From: Norana najaformis
Lineage: Eukaryota > Annelida > Clitellata > Crassiclitellata > Hormogastridae
Reading direction: 5' to 3'
DNA length: 64,000 nucleotides
Assembly: GCA_964023275.1 (NCBI GenBank)
Contig: OZ029914.1
Span: forward strand, 50,422,530 to 50,486,529
A model generated the notes under the pieces. That model did not search any database and was not told the DNA's origin. It saw only the letters and a list, made by a program, of their open reading frames with translations. Both the position numbers and the translations under genes were made by a program. Below are positions 31,900 to 60,881 of the stretch, one piece after another (positions within the stretch are counted from its first letter, which is position 1; the number at the start of each line of letters is the position of its first letter).

Positions 31900-32150
31900 T
31901 TTCCTTTTCTTTGATCAATGAGCCAACAGCAGGCAATTCCCATAATTCTGGATGCGGGGACAAGGCACTGCAGAACTTCCCGTTTGTTTCCAGTTCCCGC
32001 AAACTACTTGCCCTGGACTTTACACATAGTCCGTTCAGCAGGTTCGAGCCGTAACCGTTAGGTCACAGAGATGTTACGGACTGGTTCGAGCCTGCTGAGC
32101 GGACTCCGTGTAGCGACCCCGGGCGACTTTTGGTACTATTGAATTAATTA
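31900..32150. repeat. Head-to-head pair of SINE-like repeats (family 3)
   Basis: Two inverted copies meet near 32060: GTCCGTTCAGCAGGTTCGAG on one side, and GGTTCGAGCCTGCTGAGCGG on the other. GGTTCGAGCC is B-box-like. Other copies: 9150-9260, 49860-49990 and 56440-56570. Confidence 0.6.
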
Positions 32151-32957
32151 GCAAATTATGCTAACGATAGCTATATTTCCGAAAAAGTAAAATGGTATTC
32201 TCGAAAGTGTTGTTAGCAGTGCATAATAACACATACATATTGAGACTAAAGTTACGTTGCACCGATTCACAGCTCCATTGCAATGGCTTAACGTGTTTGC
32301 TAAATGTTTTTACATAGTTCTAATGCATGCCAGAAAATAACATTACTATATTAATCACTGCTATGGTTCATAAAGCTAAGTTTCAAACTAAAAGTGTGAA
32401 AAGTCATTCCATTTTCTTTGTAACTCTAAACAGAAAACAAAATGAACGTTCCAATTTGGTAACATAAACTTTAAATAACCCCATAAACACGTGAGTGCGC
32501 AAACATTCATCGTGAGATTTCCTATTTCGCATTTCCACAGCTTTTGGAACTAGCAAAATTATCAGTCTGGGATTAAGTCTTGGGAATACACCACTGATAT
32601 AAACTTTTTGAATAACCATCTGAGATAAATTAATCTATCTTAACCTTTATATTTCATATTTATTAAACTTTCTTAATTATTGACTAGTCACTTTGCAAAT
32701 TTCACATTTAATACCGTTCGAGAAGATTACACACAACTGAATAAAGCTCCAGTGACAAGTGATTAAAGTCAATTGAAATGTACAATACAAGTGGCGCAAA
32801 GACACGTGTATTCCAAACCTATACTGGCTTTCTATTTCTACTAATGCATAAATGGTGGCCATATTAAAATCTAAGATTGAATTTCTGAATATTGCTCGTA
32901 GTCCGATGCTTCGAGGCTACTTTGGAAGGTTGCAAATCAGGTTTTGTTTGTATGCAG

Positions 32958-33026
32958 ATATAGATTTAGCAAATATCCACTTGTTTGCGTGTTTTTATCG
33001 CATCCAAATTCTCTTGGTTCATCGAG
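32958..33026 (+). CDS. Orphan phase-1 exon candidate with conserved partner
   Basis: 69 nt between TATGCAG and GTAAGT, phase 1 to 1, reading DIDLANIHLFACFYRIQI. The paralogous 53392-53463 reads DLDLAKNIHFSASLYRIQI, 72 nt, also between AG and GT. The two differ by an in-frame triplet, which suggests selection on coding. The hydrophobic centre might be a membrane-proximal segment. It is not attached to any gene I can trace. Confidence 0.4.
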
Positions 33027-33450
33027 GTAAGTAGTCTCTAATGACAATAAGTTCTATTTTTGCAGTTTGTTTCTGAATAAACGCACGCTACAGTAGAATT
33101 TTTACACAGATGTGTTCCACAAGGTTCTAATCTTTTCTGAAGTTATCCTGTGATTTATTCCACAGCTTTCATCTTAATTTTCTTGATCTCTAACTTTTCT
33201 ATAATTTCTCTATCTTAAACTATGAGCATCAACTTAGCATCCATAGAAAATTTATCGCTTGCTAATTTGTAATGTAAATATAATTATAAATTTATATAGA
33301 GCCGTATAAAGAGAAATTAATCACAGGTTTTCGTGCTGCGATGAACTTCATCATTTAAATTTTCATGTACAAGAAACAAATATTGTCACAGTGGCGCTAA
33401 AGAAGTTTTCAGATTATATTTCTTAAAACTCACCGTGTCATCATTTACAG

Positions 33451-47464: not shown

Positions 47465-48599
47465 GTAAACCAGACGTGATCCAAGCGAAGTCGCTATATC
47501 AAGATTTCTACCTCGGCCAAAGACAACTTTGAAATGCTCATTTATTGGCTCATGTTTTCCTCGTTGAAAAGCTTCCTCATAGTATTCTCAATAAGTGATT
47601 CATGCTAAATATTCAGGTATTATATATTTTTTTTTATTTAAAAAATTTCTATAAACATATTTTATACTTTACAAATTTGTATTATATATATTTATATTTT
47701 AGAAATTTGCATAATTTTTACAAACAGGTAGCGACTTTCTCCTGTCAGATATCATTTGAACCTGCAGGATGTATTGCAATTATTGTTTCCAGTTTATCTG
47801 AGCACTGCATTGTTTAACTTTGTTCTTAATGGAAATATTTCCAACTCTGGAGAGTATTGGCTAACCAAGCAGTATAATTTGATGCTTGTGCTACATTGAA
47901 TAGCACGGAATTTGTCGTGTTGGGCATTTTCTTTTTGTCCCCATGAATTTGAAAGTGGCAATAATCTAACCTAATTTAATCTACAAAGTGGTAATACGGA
48001 TGATGATTCCCCTCTCGAATTTACTATCTTCCAAGATACGAAGAGGCGCTACGCACTTAACACAGCATGATAAATGAAAATGGCAAAATTCTATTAATAT
48101 TCAAAAATGGTATCTTGCATAGTAGCAATGTAGTTATTGATGGTGGTTGTAATTATAACTATCCGATCCCGCTTCCGATCCTGCACCATCCATGACCACC
48201 ATCACCAACGATCTCCCAGCTTGAACTCCCAGATTCTGACCTATCACCTAAACTGTCCAAACTACTTGGCTCTTGCTGACTTGATTTGATATAGCGCCAG
48301 TTTTTAAGCTGCCCCCTGACGAGGCTTTTGTGTGGCGCTGCAAAATTTAGTAGAAGCTGCAAATTATAATAATAGGTTTGCCAGAACTCTGCCGAGAATT
48401 TCCGAAATTTCAGAGATTTACACTTATATTGCATATGTTGCACTCAACATAGTTTAGCTATCGAAGTGGTCATTTTGAATACTGTTGATGTTATTGATCA
48501 AAAAATCTATGTAAGAATGCTATTAGAGCAAAGAACGTAAGAGCAAACCATGAGATCTCAAGGAAAGGTATCATCGTACTACTGTAGGGTAGTATCACA
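47465..48599. other. AT-rich intergenic sequence
   Basis: Contains very AT-rich TATATATTT stretches (47620-47730), and at about 48150-48365 a segment with GATATAGCGCCAG and GTGTGGCGCTGC resembling the ATTACG-tail SINE family. No gene seen. Confidence 0.4.
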
Positions 48600-49860
48600 T
48601 TGTTTAATTTGATAAAATGTGTCTTTGTAAGAATGATATTTGTACAAAGGACGTAGCAGCACACATCATGCGAGCTGAAGGAATGGTATATGATAGTACA
48701 ACATTGTTGTAATTGAAAAATATGTCTGAGTGAGAATGTATTTTACAAAGAATGTAACAGCACACATAATGCGAGTTGAAGGAATAGTAAATGACAGTGT
48801 AACATTGTTTTAATTTATAAATATTTCTGCGTGACAATGCTATTTTACAAAAAATGTAACATCACACATCATGCCAGCTGAGGCAATGGTATATGATAGT
48901 GTAATATTGTTTTAATTGATATGGATCCCTGCATAAGATTGCTATTTTACAAAGAATGTAACATCACGCATAATGCGAGTTGAAGGAATGGTAAATGACA
49001 GTGTAACATTGTTTTAAATGAAAAATATGTCTGACTAAGAATGCTATTTTACAAAGAATGTAACAGCACACACAATGCAAGCTGAGGCAATGGTATATGA
49101 TAGTGTAATATTGTTTTAATTGATATATATGCCTGCATAAGATTGCTATTTTACAAAGAATGTAACGCCACGCATAATGCGAGCTGAAGGAATGGTACAT
49201 GATAGTACAACATTGTTTTAAATGACAAATATGTCTGCCTAAAAATGTTACTTTACAAAGAGTGTAACAACATACATCATGCGAGTTGAAGGAATGATAG
49301 TATAACTTTGTTTCAAATGATAAATATGTCTGCACAAGAATGCTATTTTACAAAGAATGTAACAGCAGATATAATGCGAGCTCAAGGAATGGTAAATGAT
49401 AGTATAACATTGTTTTAATTGATATATAAATGTATACTTAAGAATGTTATTTTACAAAGAATGTAACATCACACTTCATGCGAGCTGAGGCAATGGTATA
49501 TGATAGTGTAATATTGTTTTAATTGATATGTATCCCTGCATAAGATTGCTATTTTACAAAGAATGTAACGCCACACATAATGCGAGTTGAAGGAATGGTA
49601 AATGATAGTATAACATTGTTTTAATTGAAAAATATGTCTGAGTAAGAATGCGATTTTACAAAGAATGTAACAGCACACACAATGCGAGCTGAGACAATGG
49701 TATATGATAGTGTAATATTGTTTTAATTGGTATATATGCCTGCATAAGATTGCTATTTTACAAAGAATGTAACGCCACGCATAATGCGATCTGAAGGAAT
49801 GGTACATGATATTACAACATTGTTTTAAATGACATTGTTATAAAGAATGTAACAGTACAC
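48600..49860. repeat. Satellite array, unit about 102 bp, about 12 copies
   Basis: The word ACAAAGAATGTAAC recurs at 48745, 48847 (variant), 48949, 49051, 49153, 49255 (variant), 49350, 49454, 49556, 49658 and 49760, mostly 102 bp apart (one step of 95 and one of 104). Two unit types alternate (CTGCATAAGATTGC versus CTGAGTAAGAATGC), indicating a dimeric higher-order period of about 204 bp. Because 102 is divisible by three, the minus strand stays open for long distances with a repeated YHSFNSHYVC, YILCKIAF pattern. I treat that as a by-product of the period. Confidence 0.95.
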
Positions 49861-50503
49861 ATCATGTCCGTTCAGCAGGCTTGAACCCGTAACCGTTAGG
49901 TCACCGATGTTTTATGGACGGGATCGAGCCGGCTGAGAAGATTCCGTGTAATAAACCCTGGGCGACTGTTGTTACTATTGCAAAAGAATTAGCCAATTAT
50001 GATAGTGTTAGCTACATTTCTGATAAAGAAACTGGTATTCTCGAAAGTTTTGTTCAAAATACATTAAAACATATCGAAACTTGAGTAACATTACTCTTAC
50101 TCACAGTTCCACTGAAACAGGCTTAACTTGTTTGTCTAACTACTTTTACATGGTTGAAATGGAAGCCAGAAAAGAAAATTACTATATCACTGGCCAACAA
50201 ATAATTTGTTGCCTCAAATGTTAGAACTGTTTCTGGGTATATTTGACCTGCTGATTCCAGAAAAGGCACCAGTTTTCTCCCAGCAGGTCTAGTTTTCGAG
50301 ATATAGAACATTATGCCATATACCAGTCCTTGCCTCTGCTCGCCCATAAAACATAAGGCTATAGCTATAATTATGTAGTGCTCAATTTATTATGTGATAC
50401 ACTAAATAAACATAATAATACAAATACTTAAAAGAAAATGGTAGTACCTGAAACTGTACTTATATGATACCAAACAGAACAAGTTTGTTATAAAAATTTC
50501 AAG

Positions 50504-52211
50504 TCATTCGACACCGAAGAAGCTCCTTTTGTACGATTTCCGAGTGTGGCATCTGCCGGAACAATCGCGCATAATATTCCAGCAATAGTCTGCCATCATG
50601 TGTGCATCCCATCTTCCTTGATATCGATTTTCCATTGTTTTGATGTCTTGGTGAAATCTTTCACCTTGCTCTTCGCTGAAGTCACCAAGATTCTCTGGAA
50701 AGCGATCTAAGTGACTGTGGAGATAATGGACTTTAATGCTCATGTTTGCAGCCAAGCTTGTTGAAATGAAGAAGCATATCCTCTACTAGTTGTGCATAAT
50801 TGTCTGCCTTCTTGTTGCCAAGAAAAGTTTTAGTTACAAGAACAAAGGAAGACCAGGCACAAGATTCGATTTCATTCATTGATGGTATGAAAAGTGGGTC
50901 ATTCATAAGTTGCCTGATCTGTGGACCATCGAAGATTCCAGCCTTCAATTTTTCCATTGTAATTCCTGGTAACTTGTGTACTATGTATTCGAAGCATGAA
51001 CCTTCTTTATTCAAAGCCCTGACAAATTCTTTCATCAGGCCTAGCTTTATATGTAGTGGTGGCAGTATGATCCTATCTCGTGCCACCAAAGATTCCTTGA
51101 TTACATTTTGGGCTCCAACCACCATGTCTTTCCTCGAAGGCCAATCTTTTCTTGTCCAATGTTCATGCTTGGCTCTACTGTCCCAAAGCTGACACAAAAA
51201 GCAGGGATACTTTGTGTAGCCACTTTGTTGACCAAGGAGGAAATTTACCATCTTCAAGTCTACACAAATTACCCATTGATGTTCTTTGTATTTTATCTTT
51301 TCCAGTACTAAAGAGATGGCATTGTACTCTTCTTTCATCCTGGTGGAGTGACCGATTGGAATAGAACCAAATTTGTTGCCGTTATTTAAAAGCATACATT
51401 TCAGACTACGTTTTGAACTGTCGATAAAAAGACGCCACTCATCTGGGCTGTAATCCGACAGACCAATTTTCTTCAATAAGTTGCTGATGTCATTACAGAA
51501 TACTAGGTTGTTGTCTTCGGTAAAGAATGGCAGCAAATCCTTTTCTCTGTTTCTATAAATTGTAATTTTCGTTCCAGGCTGAAGTGCATTCTTTTCCTTT
51601 AGTCTGGACGCAAGCAATTCAGAGGACTCTTTGGAAAGATTTAAGTCCCTGATCAGATCACTCAACTCTTTTTGGTCAAAACGTTCACTGTGTGAAGTTG
51701 ATTGGAAATCACTGTCACTGCCCCCACTTTCTTCACTTTCGTCATCTTGTCCGATATTGAACATGCAAGTGTCATCGTCTGAGAGCTGAGGTAGTTCGCG
51801 AAAAGGTGGAACTGGTACAATATCCGAATGCGGAACAGGTCTCCTGGCTGAAGGTATATCAGGGTAAGACAACTTGTGACGATTATTTCGATTGATGCCT
51901 ATGATATTAACCATACAAAAGTAACAGTCGTCGAAGTGGTTTATCTGTTCCCTCCAAACCATCGGTACACCAAATTTCAGGCAGCTTCTCTTTCCAATTG
52001 TCCAGTGGCGCAATTGTTCAATACAAGTTTTGCATACTGTATGAGGAGCCCATTGCTTATCTTGATCTCCAAGTTTGACACCAAAATAACCTACATATGC
52101 TCTTTTTACAAACTCAGAAATCGGTTTCCTGTTTGCTTTTAGTGTGTATTCCCCACAAATGTAGCAGAATATGTCTGGGTGGTTAATGCAGCTCCGTCTG
52201 GAAGTAGCCAT
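50504..52211 (-). pseudogene. Candidate transposase (CYICG zinc-finger protein), one frameshift
   Basis: ATG at 52211 opens about 490 codons; an extra A in an AAA run at about 50745-50747 stops the frame at 50733. The next frame continues with MSIKVHYLHSHLDRFPENLG to 50504, so the intact protein would have about 565 residues. The N-terminus has HPDIFCYICG, CKTCIEQ and CYFC (likely zinc-binding), followed by an acidic linker (about residues 150-180). The core has WVICVDLKMVNFLLGQQSG, YPCFLCQLWDSR, HEHW and LPPLHIKLGLMK. I know similar uncharacterised proteins from many invertebrate genomes. DLK, the CxxC/HxxH stretch and later acidic residues could form a DDE-type nuclease, but catalytic residues are not proven. 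Location as the sole gene between TIRs supports a transposase role. Confidence 0.7.
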
Positions 52212-52367
52212 AACCTTAAGGATGTTCGCATCTGAGGAATTAAATGACTAACCTAAAAAATAGTAAGAACATGTAGTTATTTAATGCTCACATTCACAGA
52301 TTGTTCTTGCGACCAACTCTTAATATGCCCTAAGACGACTGCGGCTGCTCTAGCTTTCAGGAGGCGG

Positions 52368-52375
52368 TTTATATA
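52368..52375 (-). promoter_or_regulatory. Candidate TATA box of the transposon gene
   Basis: TATATAAA on the minus strand, 157 bp before the ATG at 52211 and inside the element. The truncated relative at 15191 also has a TATA box (TATAAATA) upstream. Confidence 0.35.
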
Positions 52376-53391
52376 GGCTATAAATGCTGACTTCAGCATA
52401 ATCTATTTACATAGTTCGAAACCATGAAACGCTGTATAAGCACAAATAAATTCTAAATGAGGCCATGAATTTAGTGCTGAGTAAGCTGTAGGCTACGGAA
52501 TAGTTATTTCGTTGAATCAGCAATATCTCAGCACGCGGCAAGATATGCTGATTTTACATTATAAGGATGTAGGCATTATATGAATCAGCAAGAATTATAA
52601 TTAGCCATAAATAAAGCTTATTATGACATTTTAGTTTTGTCAAAGACATCGTTTAAAGAGTGGACTGGGTTTTCTTTACAAAATCGACGATATCTCAGAA
52701 ACTAGACCTGATGCACTCAACCCAATGACATTTTCTGAATCAGCGCCCAAAATTACCCCAAGAACAGGTCTAAAACCGAAGGCAACAAGAAAAAAAAAAT
52801 TTTCTGTTGGCCAGTGTATTAATCACAGCTATGGTTTGTTTCTGTTTCCAAAGTAAAAGTTAAAAACAGCATTCGATTTTCTTTGCGACTTACAGCAGAA
52901 AACAAACTGACCGTCCCTCTCTGGTTACATAAAATTTAAATGACCCTATAAACACGTAAATGTGCAAAAAGTTCCCTATTTGCCTTTCCGCAGTTTGGGA
53001 ACCCACAAAATGACCAGTCTGAGATTAAGCCTTGGAATTACGCAACTGAGATTTATTAATCTATCTTAATCTTTATATTTTATATTTATTAATTTTACAT
53101 AAATATGACCTAGTCATTTTGCATATTTCACAATAATACCGTTAATATGTACTCAGAACAGAATAAGGTGATAAGGTATTCAAGTCAAGTGGAATGTACA
53201 ATACAAGTGACGCAATGACACTTGTATTTCAATTCTAGAATAGCTTTCTACTGTATAAATTTTACCCACATCAAGATGTAAGATTAAATTTCTGAATATT
53301 ACTCATAGGCAAACGGTTTACAGTTGATGATCCGTTAGCAGTTTTTATCAAATTCTTTAGTTCCACATTGGAGTATGCAAATTTCGCGCAG

Positions 53392-53463
53392 ATTTAGATC
53401 TAGCAAAAAATATCCACTTCTCTGCATCTCTTTATCGCATCCAAATTCGCTTCGTTCAACTAG
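53392..53463 (+). CDS. Orphan phase-1 exon candidate (paralogue of 32958-33026)
   Basis: 72 nt between GCGCAG and GTCTGT, phase 1 to 1, reading DLDLAKNIHFSASLYRIQI. One codon longer than its partner and open throughout. The donor is weaker than the partner's GTAAGT. Confidence 0.35.
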
Positions 53464-56026
53464 GTCTGTAGTCTGTAAAGATAATAAGCAATATTTTTAC
53501 AGTTTGATATTGAATAAACGCACATTACTCTAGAAATATCGTTCAGATGTTTTCCACAAGGTTCTGGCATTTTTTGAAGTTATCCTGTGATTTATTCCAC
53601 AGCAGTCATCTTAATTTTCTTGATCTCTAACTTTCTAGAATTTCTCTATATTAAATTATAGGTATCCACTTGGCATCTCAGAATATAAACAGCTTGCTAA
53701 TTTGTAATTTAATTGTAATTAAAAATTTATATAAAGCCGCATAAAGAGAAAATAATCACAGGCTATTGTGCCCGGAAGAACTTCATATCACTTTCCATGT
53801 ACAAGAAATATATCACAGTGGCGCTATAGAAGTTTTCATAGCGCCCATGTTATAATCGAATGTAATGACTTCTATAAGCGCAGCTTTTATAACATAATGA
53901 AAATAAAAACAGCACAGCTATTTTATAATTTGGCGATACACTTTTGACGCATATGCAGCTGAGAGCGTTTTTCTGAAGTCAGATTATTGTTTCAACGGGG
54001 TTGTGCAAATAACAAATTCGCCGCAGCCTTTGAGAATATTGGGTCGATATGTCTTAGGCGCAAGAAGTGTGTCATTTGCATCTCATTAAACTTGAAACTG
54101 CTGCTGTGATGGCCACTTGCTAGATATATCAAAATCATTTGAGTTATTAGTTCTTGACTGCCCACATTATAACAGCAAGTGTTGTTAAATGGTCAAATAT
54201 GGAATGGAAGGTTTATTCAACATTGAAGATCGCGCAGCGCATTTGACGACGATGACAATAGATGAAATATCCCTGCTTAACATTGTTTTATATACGTGCA
54301 TTTAACTTGTTTAATCTAGCAGAGAATCTCAGTTGAATTTCTTCTCCTTACCTCAGCATAATATAAACTGATGCTGATTAAGATGTAAATTTGCATGTAA
54401 TAAATGCCACTTTCCATGACAACTTCTAAATTGTTAGTTCTAATTACCTTTTATTTTTACAAACAGCAGAAGTATGATCTTCTCCATTAGTCTTAGTATG
54501 TAAGCACGTGTCAGGTAGAAAGGAAGTACGCAGACTTATATTCACATCTGTTGTACTGTTTGTTGTAAGCAAATACAACGGCCTTACTGAAAAACTGTTG
54601 CAGGCTAATTGGCTGCTTGTGTTAAACACTGGTAGTAATTTAGGTAAGTTAAATCTACTTGCTATTTCTGAATATATATAGCTATATTTGCAGTTTTCTA
54701 AATAAATGAAATAAAGGCAAACGGATGCACTTACAGCTGATAAATTTAGAAAGATCTGAAACGATCTATTCCCCGAATTTCATATGCCGGAAAAGTTTTT
54801 AGGTACCAATTAGAAACTTCTACTGTATAACCCCCATGTCTAACGCACTAGGCATTAGCCGTTGGCACTCCAAAACCAAGCCGAACTCAGCTTAATGCCC
54901 AGATTATCAGTCTGCTGAGACAGACAGACATACTACGGTGGACATGCCAGCGGAAAAGGTAAGTTTTGAGCCGAAAGTGGTTTTTTTTGCATGGATTTAT
55001 TACACCGTGTTTACTCGTTATATCCCTGAGTTTTACCAGAGCGAAGGGACAAATAGTAGGCCTATTATACCAGTTTTTACCCTCTTTTATTATTTTACTA
55101 TATAAGGGCCCCGAGATTGATTCCTGCCTAGGGCTCAACTAACCTTGAACGGACCCTGCCTCTAACGCATTCAAATCTAAAGTATTTTAATAAGTTTATA
55201 GGCCTACAACCCTCCCTAACAGCCCATCTGCTTTCTTCGCTATGTTATCGCCATAAGCGTATCGTATCTTTCCCGTCATACGGTATTTCTGGACATCCCA
55301 CATGACTGTGAATAAAATGATGTATTGCGTTTAGTAGCAAGTGTAAGATTGTACTTGAGTATGACTGGATAATTTGGTACAGCCAACAATTTAACCAGAC
55401 TTAAATTGACAAATACATGATTAGTAACCATTTATCGGGAAAGAGAAACTCTAGAACGAAAACACGAGGTTATGAAAGAGAAAACTATCTGGCTCACGAT
55501 TTTTGTCCAACACTTTTGCAAGTGATAGACAACTGTTTTTCTCTTTCTCATCTTGTAAGCAAGTCCTTTCAAATGCTCGATAATAACAACTTTCTGAATA
55601 ACAGAATAGATTGGAAAAAGAGTTTCTATTCGGAAATATCGTTCATATGTTTGACGCAAGTACGGTCGAACGAACAGAAGATACTGTTTCAATATTTGTC
55701 ATCTAGCTTATTAGCTTATTCTTCACATTTATGACCACGTGACCGTTCTCACAGCGCATTAAGAGTCCTCATTCTCTGACCTCTTTTATAAACAAGATAA
55801 AAGGCGTAGCTGAAGCTCTAATAACGTAACACTTGACGAATGTGTTCTTTCTAAAAGCATTTTGATTAAAAGTCATGGTCGGGAAAGGCTGTATATTATT
55901 TTAAATAACCTCTATAGACTCGTTATCTTGAGTTTTATAGGATACCTTACATGATACATAAAAATTGAAACAGTGCTAACAGTCGAACGTTTTAACAATG
56001 CCATTACAATATTCGGAAGTGGCATA

Positions 56027-56986: not shown

Positions 56987-57938
56987 GTGAGCCGAGATTG
57001 GACATGATACAATACTTAGCTACTTTCATAGATTCATTATCGTCAAGTCCAGCACTGATCGTCGTCGTTGGAGTTGGTGCAGCTGTTGGCGGAATCCTGA
57101 TGACCATAATTGTGGCCTTTCTGTGGAAATCAGCAAAAAGAAACTGCAGTACGTTGAACTCTTTTCATCTCACGAATATCTGTTTGATGCTGTTTTGGAA
57201 GGCAATAAAGCATGACGCAGGCAAAACTTTATTGTCACTCGTGAATATTACCTTATACTGTAACTTACTGATTAAGTTATAATGTGAAGGTAGTGATGAC
57301 TGCTTTCAAATTTGAGACAACGACAATGACGATGATTTTGATGGATATGATTATGGTGGTGATGATGATAATGATGATTATGACGATGAGGATGACGATG
57401 TAGATGATGATGATGATGATAATGATGATGATGATGATGATGACAAAAACAATGATATCGATGCAAGCATAAGATATTTCCGCAGTAATATCGATTGTGC
57501 TTCAATGGATCATTAAATTTAGTAACGAGTCATATTAGCAGTTCTTTTAAAACTTATGTAATGCTTCATTTAGAGCAAATTGTAGATGTACCGGACATTC
57601 TTACAGGACTCAAAGACCGAGAAGATCAAGATGAAAGGGGTGCAGAGGAAAGACGTGAATCTGGTGTATATGAGTCCGTTCGCTCATCTGCTATTGAAAT
57701 GGACCAAGCGGTATATGCGGCTATTGAAACAGAAGAATTATCAGTTATGCATACATTCGGAGTAGCATCTGAATTCCAGAACGGGTATAAGAGTCTTGGT
57801 GAACGTCCGATCGTTCAAGAAACACAACTATATGCCACGATTGATTCAAGAACTACCGAAGTAGAAAGAGGTCAAGACACGTCCCAGACCCAACACTCAT
57901 ACTACAACATTGAGATCAATACAGTTTATATGCAGTAA
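56987..57938 (+). CDS. Receptor F: membrane exon and tail with five or six YxxV/I/L motifs (5' partial)
   Basis: Exon 56987-57148 (162 nt, phase 1 to 1, acceptor ACCCAG, donor GTACGT) encodes a hydrophobic helix rich in glycine and valine (ALIVVVGVGAAVGGILMTII) followed by basic KSAKRN. Exon 57574-57938 (acceptor CATTTAG, stop TAA) encodes the tail with VYESV, VYAAI, GYKSL, LYATI, SYYNI and a final TVYMQ. YKSL and YATI are separated by 11 residues, as are YESV and YAAI, within the loosest ITAM spacing. None has the strict ITIM residue at minus 2. Extracellular exons fall in or before the 10-N gap. In the paralogous block, the segment with both exons is missing. An AATAAA lies at 58323. Confidence 0.7.
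57322..57452. repeat. GAT-rich microsatellite in intron of receptor F
   Basis: GATGATGAT and GACGATGAT units. The opposite strand gives a histidine-rich open frame, an artefact of the repeat. Confidence 0.9.
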
Positions 57939-60008: not shown

Positions 60009-60590
60009 CCTGTGAGAGTGCACTGGCGCAACCGTCGGTTCTCCCGTCCCAACGTTTATGTGTGTATTATGTGTGTATTATGTGTGTATTATGTGTGTTT
60101 TATGTTTAGTCCGAACGGGATGTATGTCATCAGTTCGTTCATCCAGTATTGTTCCCGTTCTAGTCGTTCCTTTCTGTTGTTTGTTTGTTCTATTGGTAGT
60201 ATCGTCAAATGGTTTTTTGTATGTCCGGTCTCGTTGAAGTGTGTTGCTATCGGTGTGTCGTTTTTCATTTTTATATTATATTTGTGATTAGATAATCTTG
60301 TTGCTAGTGGTCTACTGGTTTCCCCGACGTATTGTTTCTTACATTTTTTGCAGGTAATTAGATAGACTGTGTCTCGATTTTTACAGTCTAATGTGTGTTT
60401 TATGTTGTAAGTTCTTCTTGTGTAGGTGCTGGAGAATTGTTTTGCTATCGTTACGTGTTGGCAGGTTTGGCATCCCGCCGAGTTGCATTTGAAGGCACCT
60501 ATCGTTTGTTTAGATGTGTTTGTTGTTTTTCTAGAGTTGTCTTGAGTTAATAGTTGTCCCAAGTTTTTATGTTTTGTGTAGGCGGCAATA
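60009..60590 (-). mobile_element. Penelope-like element fragment with GIY-YIG endonuclease
   Basis: On the minus strand the frame ending at 60089 contains KCNSAGCQTCQHV, CKNRDTVYLITCKKC, KKQYVGETSRPLATRLSNHK, IATHFNETGH, EREQYWMNEL and PFGLNIKHT. This is the C-terminal part of Penelope-like elements: cysteine motifs, YLI...QYVGET (GIY-YIG core), the catalytic arginine and the glutamate in EREQYW. The polymerase is missing, so the copy is 5'-truncated. The endonuclease residues look intact. A TGTGTATTATG tandem repeat follows the stop (60057-60104). The upstream part of the frame (LCLSVVLS) belongs to the host sequence. Confidence 0.8.
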
Positions 60591-60881
60591 ATAGGGAGAC
60601 TGATACAAAAGTACAAAGGGGCGAGAGAAAGAACGACAGACAGACAAAACGACAATCAGGGACAGAAGTAGACACAGAGAACCAGAGAGAACCAGAGAGA
60701 ACCAGATGCAAGATATTGTGTAAAATAGAGACAGGAGGAGAAAAATAGACATACATGTAGAAATGAAGTCAATGTTTTTGCGGCTGTTGCTTTTACTTTG
60801 CCCTCAGTTAAAGTTTTTAAATTTAACAATAATTCAATTAATGAACAATAATGCGATTTAATTACTAAGTGATTTACTTAC

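Follow-up and report, generated by a model that had tools for sequence, protein, structure and literature searches.

The insertion and its empty site

The window analysed here, a 64,000-nucleotide stretch of the Norana najaformis genome (assembly GCA_964023275.1, contig OZ029914.1, forward-strand positions 50,422,530 to 50,486,529), contains a 2,629-bp element bounded by terminal inverted repeats (TIRs), whose single gene is now split into two open reading frames (ORFs). With high confidence, we regard this element as a copy of a Chapaev3-type (CMC/CMCT) transposon that is very young and high in copy number, and whose transposase of about 567 amino acids combines a zinc domain at the N-terminus with a core like that of RAG1/Transib. 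The features of the locus are as follows.

50188..52816, minus (gene strand): complete element, 2,629 bp, very likely Chapaev3-type; seen in its ends, duplication, empty site and genome-wide repetition
50185..50187, no strand: target-site duplication TAT, left copy, A before it
52817..52819, no strand: target-site duplication TAT, right copy, T after it
32021..33411, plus: paralogous block with the empty site, TAT at 32349-32351
50188..50329, plus: left TIR, 12 bp perfect, similarity over about 142 bp
52662..52816, minus: right TIR, 12 bp perfect, similarity over about 155 bp
50733..52211, minus: transposase ORF, first 492 amino acids, frame broken near 50745; intact 567-amino-acid relative at L012:670-2373, minus
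50504..50755, minus: remaining transposase in another frame, 83-amino-acid ORF with H(4)H and the catalytic E

The element begins with CACTGGCCAACA (at 50188) and finishes with TGTTGGCCAGTG (to 52816), each occurring once in the window; the right-end sequence ending at 52816 is the complement of CACTGGCCAACA. The flanks were compared with the paralogous block by BLAST, which aligned 49856-50187 with 32021-32351 and 52817-53838 with 32349-33411 at 73-76% identity, and the two matches share exactly 3 bp of the block, which is the size of the duplication. When the flanks were fused with a single TAT, the alignment to the block ran unbroken across the junction. Since the flank matches overlap by 3 bp and the junction alignment is continuous, the locus holds a complete insertion together with its empty site, and the segment 50188-52816 is confirmed as a complete TIR element inside a TAT duplication. 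A preliminary description, made from the sequence of the window, had proposed the full TIR transposon, the TAT duplication and the empty site in the paralogous block, all of which the flank BLAST and the junction alignment bear out. It had also given imperfect TIRs of about 90 bp; the imperfect repeats are there, and their length has to be revised, as gapped similarity continues beyond the perfect 12 bp over about 142 bp (left) and 155 bp (right), with a local alignment score of 49.5 against a maximum of 29 among 1,000 internal pairs.

On the minus strand, the gene of the window copy is divided between a 492-amino-acid ORF and an 83-amino-acid ORF in a different frame, while the copy L012 encodes an intact protein of 567 amino acids in one ORF. 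The window copy no longer makes the full transposase yet keeps both ends.

Copies across the genome

In the 608 Mb surveyed (17 contigs), exact TWA-flanked ends were found 1,009 times for the left end and 1,022 times for the right end, counts that omit copies with altered ends or other flanks, and the reversed-pattern controls gave 0 and 0. The protein had at least 87 scored matches at 98-100% identity. We fetched 68 loci by protein match, dropped four that repeated the same places and used 64, the window copy among them. Both ends were matched in 47 of the 64, and 40 of these 47 copies have identical 3-bp flanks (TTA in 19, TAA in 14, TAT in 4 and three other trimers once each), so that TTA or TAA accounts for 33 of the 40. 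Over 2,000 rounds of re-pairing the flanks, the number of shared trimers averaged 14.8 and never exceeded 28, against the 40 observed, and shifting either flank by 1-3 bases left only 0-7. Among the copies with identical 3-bp flanks, an A stands at -4 in 35/40 and a T at +4 in 36/40. The exact 12-mer is present at 45/47 left ends and 45/47 right ends, and all 47 copies start with CACTGG and finish with CAGTG. Divergence from the majority sequence of these copies ranges from 0.08 to 0.80% (median 0.30%; window copy, 0.38%).

A second sample was drawn by end sequence and consisted of 20 loci, every fifth of 100 listed left-end places, on contigs C1 and C2 only. The element was present at all 20, as one block in 13, internally deleted in three and without the right end in four, and the flanks match at 14 of the 16 loci with a right end. 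The low divergence and the results of this second sample together point to a recent burst and, as judged from these sequences, to an element that is very young and high in copy number. Copies elsewhere in the host genome, for which the preliminary description had proposed a search, thus exist with TIRs and mostly with 3-bp duplications; this check of the TIRs of family members covers the Norana najaformis genome. The 567-amino-acid protein was found in 50 of the 64 loci picked by protein match and in 5 of the 20 picked by left end alone, both counts considering proteins that start with MATS only. Non-synonymous and synonymous variants stand at 66:58, where 3.0:1 is expected; the copies had been picked by protein match, which biases this ratio, and we did not use it. 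Searching for further Chapaev3 families with a distant relative gave 76 places at 58-59% identity among the best candidates scored; this is the level at which that relative matches the present family, so no second family is shown. At G000:C1:909011-909046, 17 bases separate the starts of a left and a right end that share one strand, which suggests abutting or rearranged copies.

About a fifth of the copies lack one end. At least 34 bp of one end is missing in 12 of the 64 protein-match loci (right end in seven, left in five), and the 20 loci picked by left end include four without the right end. Of the 84 left ends on contig C1, 63 could be paired with an exact right end no more than 6 kb away, and the 21 left and 28 right ends that remain unpaired include altered ends. 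At 10 of 16 one-ended loci, a direct repeat of the target, 14-56 bp long, starts at the break and lies no more than 3 bp from the intact side. The right end is lost in seven of them (L036, L060, L064, L065, L075, L087 and L019) and the left in three (L033, L045 and L049). The repeats are identical at 287 of 292 bases. In the control, 40 complete copies reach a repeat score of at most 11, a value that L019, as the weakest of the ten, equals but does not surpass. No direct target repeat was seen at the break in L025, L029, L046, L071 and L083, and L040, which sits in simple repeats, was left out of the repeat count. In L060, an apparent piece of the element's right end follows the repeat. A true one-ended insertion with end joining would give such break-adjoining repeats, and repair templated by the empty homologue may also do so. 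A third source is possibly a switch of the assembler from the inserted to the empty haplotype; the 1.7% by which the repeats differ, above the element's median of 0.3%, leans towards this artefact.

The probable transposase and its group

The residues and motifs that characterise the protein were compared among 57 relatives, with numbering according to the intact protein downstream of the frame break and wherever so marked below.

51777..52211, minus: N-terminal zinc domain, residues 1-145, ZAD-like model
51420..51422, minus: catalytic D264 codon, invariant (57/57), end of the predicted first core strand 259-265
51258..51260, minus: catalytic D318 codon, invariant (57/57), right after the predicted strand 314-316
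51192..51203, minus: C(2)C motif, C337 and C340, invariant (57/57)
51051..51056, minus: LH motif, L385 H386 (intact-protein numbering), invariant (57/57)
50711..50728, minus: H(4)H motif, H494 (56/57) and H499 (57/57) (intact-protein numbering)
50669..50671, minus: catalytic E513 codon (intact-protein numbering), invariant (57/57), inside the predicted helix 512-528

The predicted structure has an RNase H-like core with a RAG1/Transib-like fold. Structural alignments to RAG1 and Transib are at about 9-14% identity, and according to the model the core fold is common to them and to the element's protein. Searches of PDB sequences with the protein and with its profiles returned nothing meaningful and found neither RAG1 nor Transib by sequence. 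The preliminary description had suggested that the CYICG/CFLC protein is a transposase and proposed looking for an invariant D, D, E among family members, a predicted fold unrelated to RNase H counting against the idea; D264, D318 and E513 are invariant in 57/57, and the predicted fold is that of RAG1/Transib. The gene product is very probably a cut-and-paste transposase with a RAG1-like fold. The opposing explanation, a host zinc-finger gene family that merely lies in repeats and encodes no transposase, could draw on a weak zf-AD profile match and on the database name 'uncharacterized protein', but it is hardly credible in view of the predicted fold, the invariant DDE and a gene that lies between matching ends at 47 loci, of which 40 have the same trimer on both sides.

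Among related groups, Chapaev proper makes a 4-bp duplication and Transib a 5-bp one. Here, the flanks match over 4 bp in 1/47 copies and over 5 bp in 0/47, against 3 bp in 40/47, so the element differs from Chapaev proper as well as from Transib and RAG-like transposons.

Chapaev3 dates back to Repbase Reports 2008, as cited by PMC4411706. The latter paper groups Chapaev3 with Transib and RAG1 and describes a zinc domain, 'Chapa', at its N-terminus. PMC4079192, which deals with Merrow, Garfield and Conan, describes CAC/GTG ends, a TWA duplication with insertion always between A and T, the C(2)C, LH and H(4)H motifs, and transposases, mostly encoded in one exon, of 556 or 78+484 amino acids. 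In its account, the hosts range from Hydra to vertebrates, and horizontal transfer has occurred repeatedly. For Chapaev overall, the cited paper gives a duplication of 3-4 bp. The present element has the same CAC...GTG ends, 3-bp TWA duplication in the A/T setting, DDE and motifs, about 560 amino acids (about 556-562 in the described families) and, likewise, an animal host. Two differences are seen: Merrow and Garfield have two exons according to that text, whereas the gene here is a single ORF, and TAT (also in the window copy) and a few other duplications occur beside TWA. Membership in Chapaev3 is thus very probable from shared features, the comparison being with published descriptions. The preliminary description had presented the uncharacterised family as newly linked to a mobile element; that novelty is not supported, as Chapaev3 already goes back to Repbase Reports 2008 and is the subject of PMC4079192.

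A new CMC-like superfamily apart from Chapaev3 would be in keeping with the databases, where no Pfam family exceeds its cut-off for the L012 protein, no NCBIfam match appears at E <= 1 and none of 120 relatives listed carries a transposase name. We consider it improbable, because the testable published hallmarks of Chapaev3 are all present, the A^TWA^T rule and the length of the protein among them, and because Chapaev3 is reported from Hydra and vertebrates, as are the relatives here. Assignment to CACTA/EnSpm proper is even less probable. A duplication of 3 bp, CAC ends and the motifs C(2)C and H(4)H belong to the wider clade and would suit it, but the element has a single gene, and it is for Chapaev3 that PMC4079192 describes a preference for TWA flanked by A and T. 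No transposase model was listed in Pfam for the L012 protein (three families at E <= 10) or for the 57 relatives (11 families at E <= 0.1), an absence that is in itself no exclusion. Of the CACTA/CMC type that the preliminary description had considered possible, the CMC part is supported, while CACTA proper is improbable, given the one gene, the A^TWA^T preference and no CACTA model among the Pfam families listed. PIF/Harbinger, raised by the TWA duplication, was dropped on account of the RAG1-like predicted fold and no Harbinger model among the Pfam families listed. Literature searches gave a single unrelated match for the end 12-mer, none for the protein motifs and nothing for the label PTHR46114.

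In the mechanism that we propose, a transposase dimer would pair both TIRs, and zinc at C337/C340 and H494/H499 would shape the core. The DDE site would cut at the CAC/GTG ends, perhaps via hairpins like those of RAG and Transib, and the ends would be joined to the target strands with a 3-bp stagger, mostly at A^TWA^T, so that gap filling would yield the 3-bp duplication.

The N-terminal domain, relatives and significance

A folded, Cys-rich N-terminal domain is predicted for the L012 protein. ZAD (zf-AD) mediates dimerisation in a large family of insect transcription factors, and only ZAD domains appeared among the listed matches in a fold comparison of the N-terminal domain. The model of residues ~10-77, with the CxxC pairs C16/C19 and C60/C63, resembles the ZAD of arthropod C2H2 transcription factors, and a weak zf-AD profile match covers residues 16-70. 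The lead arises from this agreement of fold and profile on the same residues, each below the usual threshold: the L012 protein scores 17.2-19.2 bits against a gathering cut-off of 28, and the best of 57 relatives reaches E 3.5e-5. Two observations weigh against it. Most relatives have no match, zf-AD being found at E <= 0.1 in 17/50 and, in another set, in 4/10; FYVE also matches 9/24 N-termini at E <= 1. Matches to RAG1_imp_bd in overlapping sets (1/57 relatives, E 0.011; 0/50; 1/24 N-termini, E 0.067) were treated as chance. Homology between the Chapaev3 N-terminal zinc domain and ZAD, as a module common by descent to ZAD factors and RAG1-like transposases, is therefore a tentative idea that we hold to be somewhat less probable than its opposite. 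The literature search on ZAD and Chapaev gave one reptile repeat review (PMC7397244), with a single mention of each word.

The protein family comprises at least 2,072 clusters, and among the 120 relatives listed there is none with a transposase name or with a Pfam domain; the label 'uncharacterised' is an annotation gap. Its range is broader than the many invertebrates named in the preliminary description, as proteins of bat (P0127), frog (P0142), snake (P0147) and amphisbaenian (P0032) are 58-70% identical to the relative P0112, and P0032 is 65% identical to the element's protein. These vertebrate relatives are in keeping with reports that Chapaev3 has spread horizontally. In viral contigs, a scan gave 28 pattern matches with no relative among them. 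The relative P0101 is filed under a Pseudomonadota metagenome-assembled genome on a 2.7-kb contig and is probably eukaryotic contamination.

Elsewhere in the window, a tandem array of similar units of about 0.1 kb (self-matches at 70-88%) lies directly left of the insertion at 48485-49835. Judged by eye, the ORFs at 57495-57938 and 1851-2270 resemble the tail of a receptor, bearing several YxxV/I motifs, and an immunoglobulin-like domain, and they may belong to a cluster of immune-type receptors; likewise by eye, a 188-amino-acid ORF at 60089-60655 resembles a GIY-YIG nuclease, as in some retroelements.

These results explain a family of at least 2,072 clusters as likely RAG1-core transposases, so that annotations can stop counting its members as host genes. 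If true, the homology with ZAD would connect a transposase domain with a large family of insect regulators. With about 1,000 near-identical copies and an intact gene in 5 of 20 end-selected loci, Norana najaformis is a good natural source for testing how a Chapaev3 transposase cuts DNA and joins it, which bears on the question of how V(D)J recombination arose.
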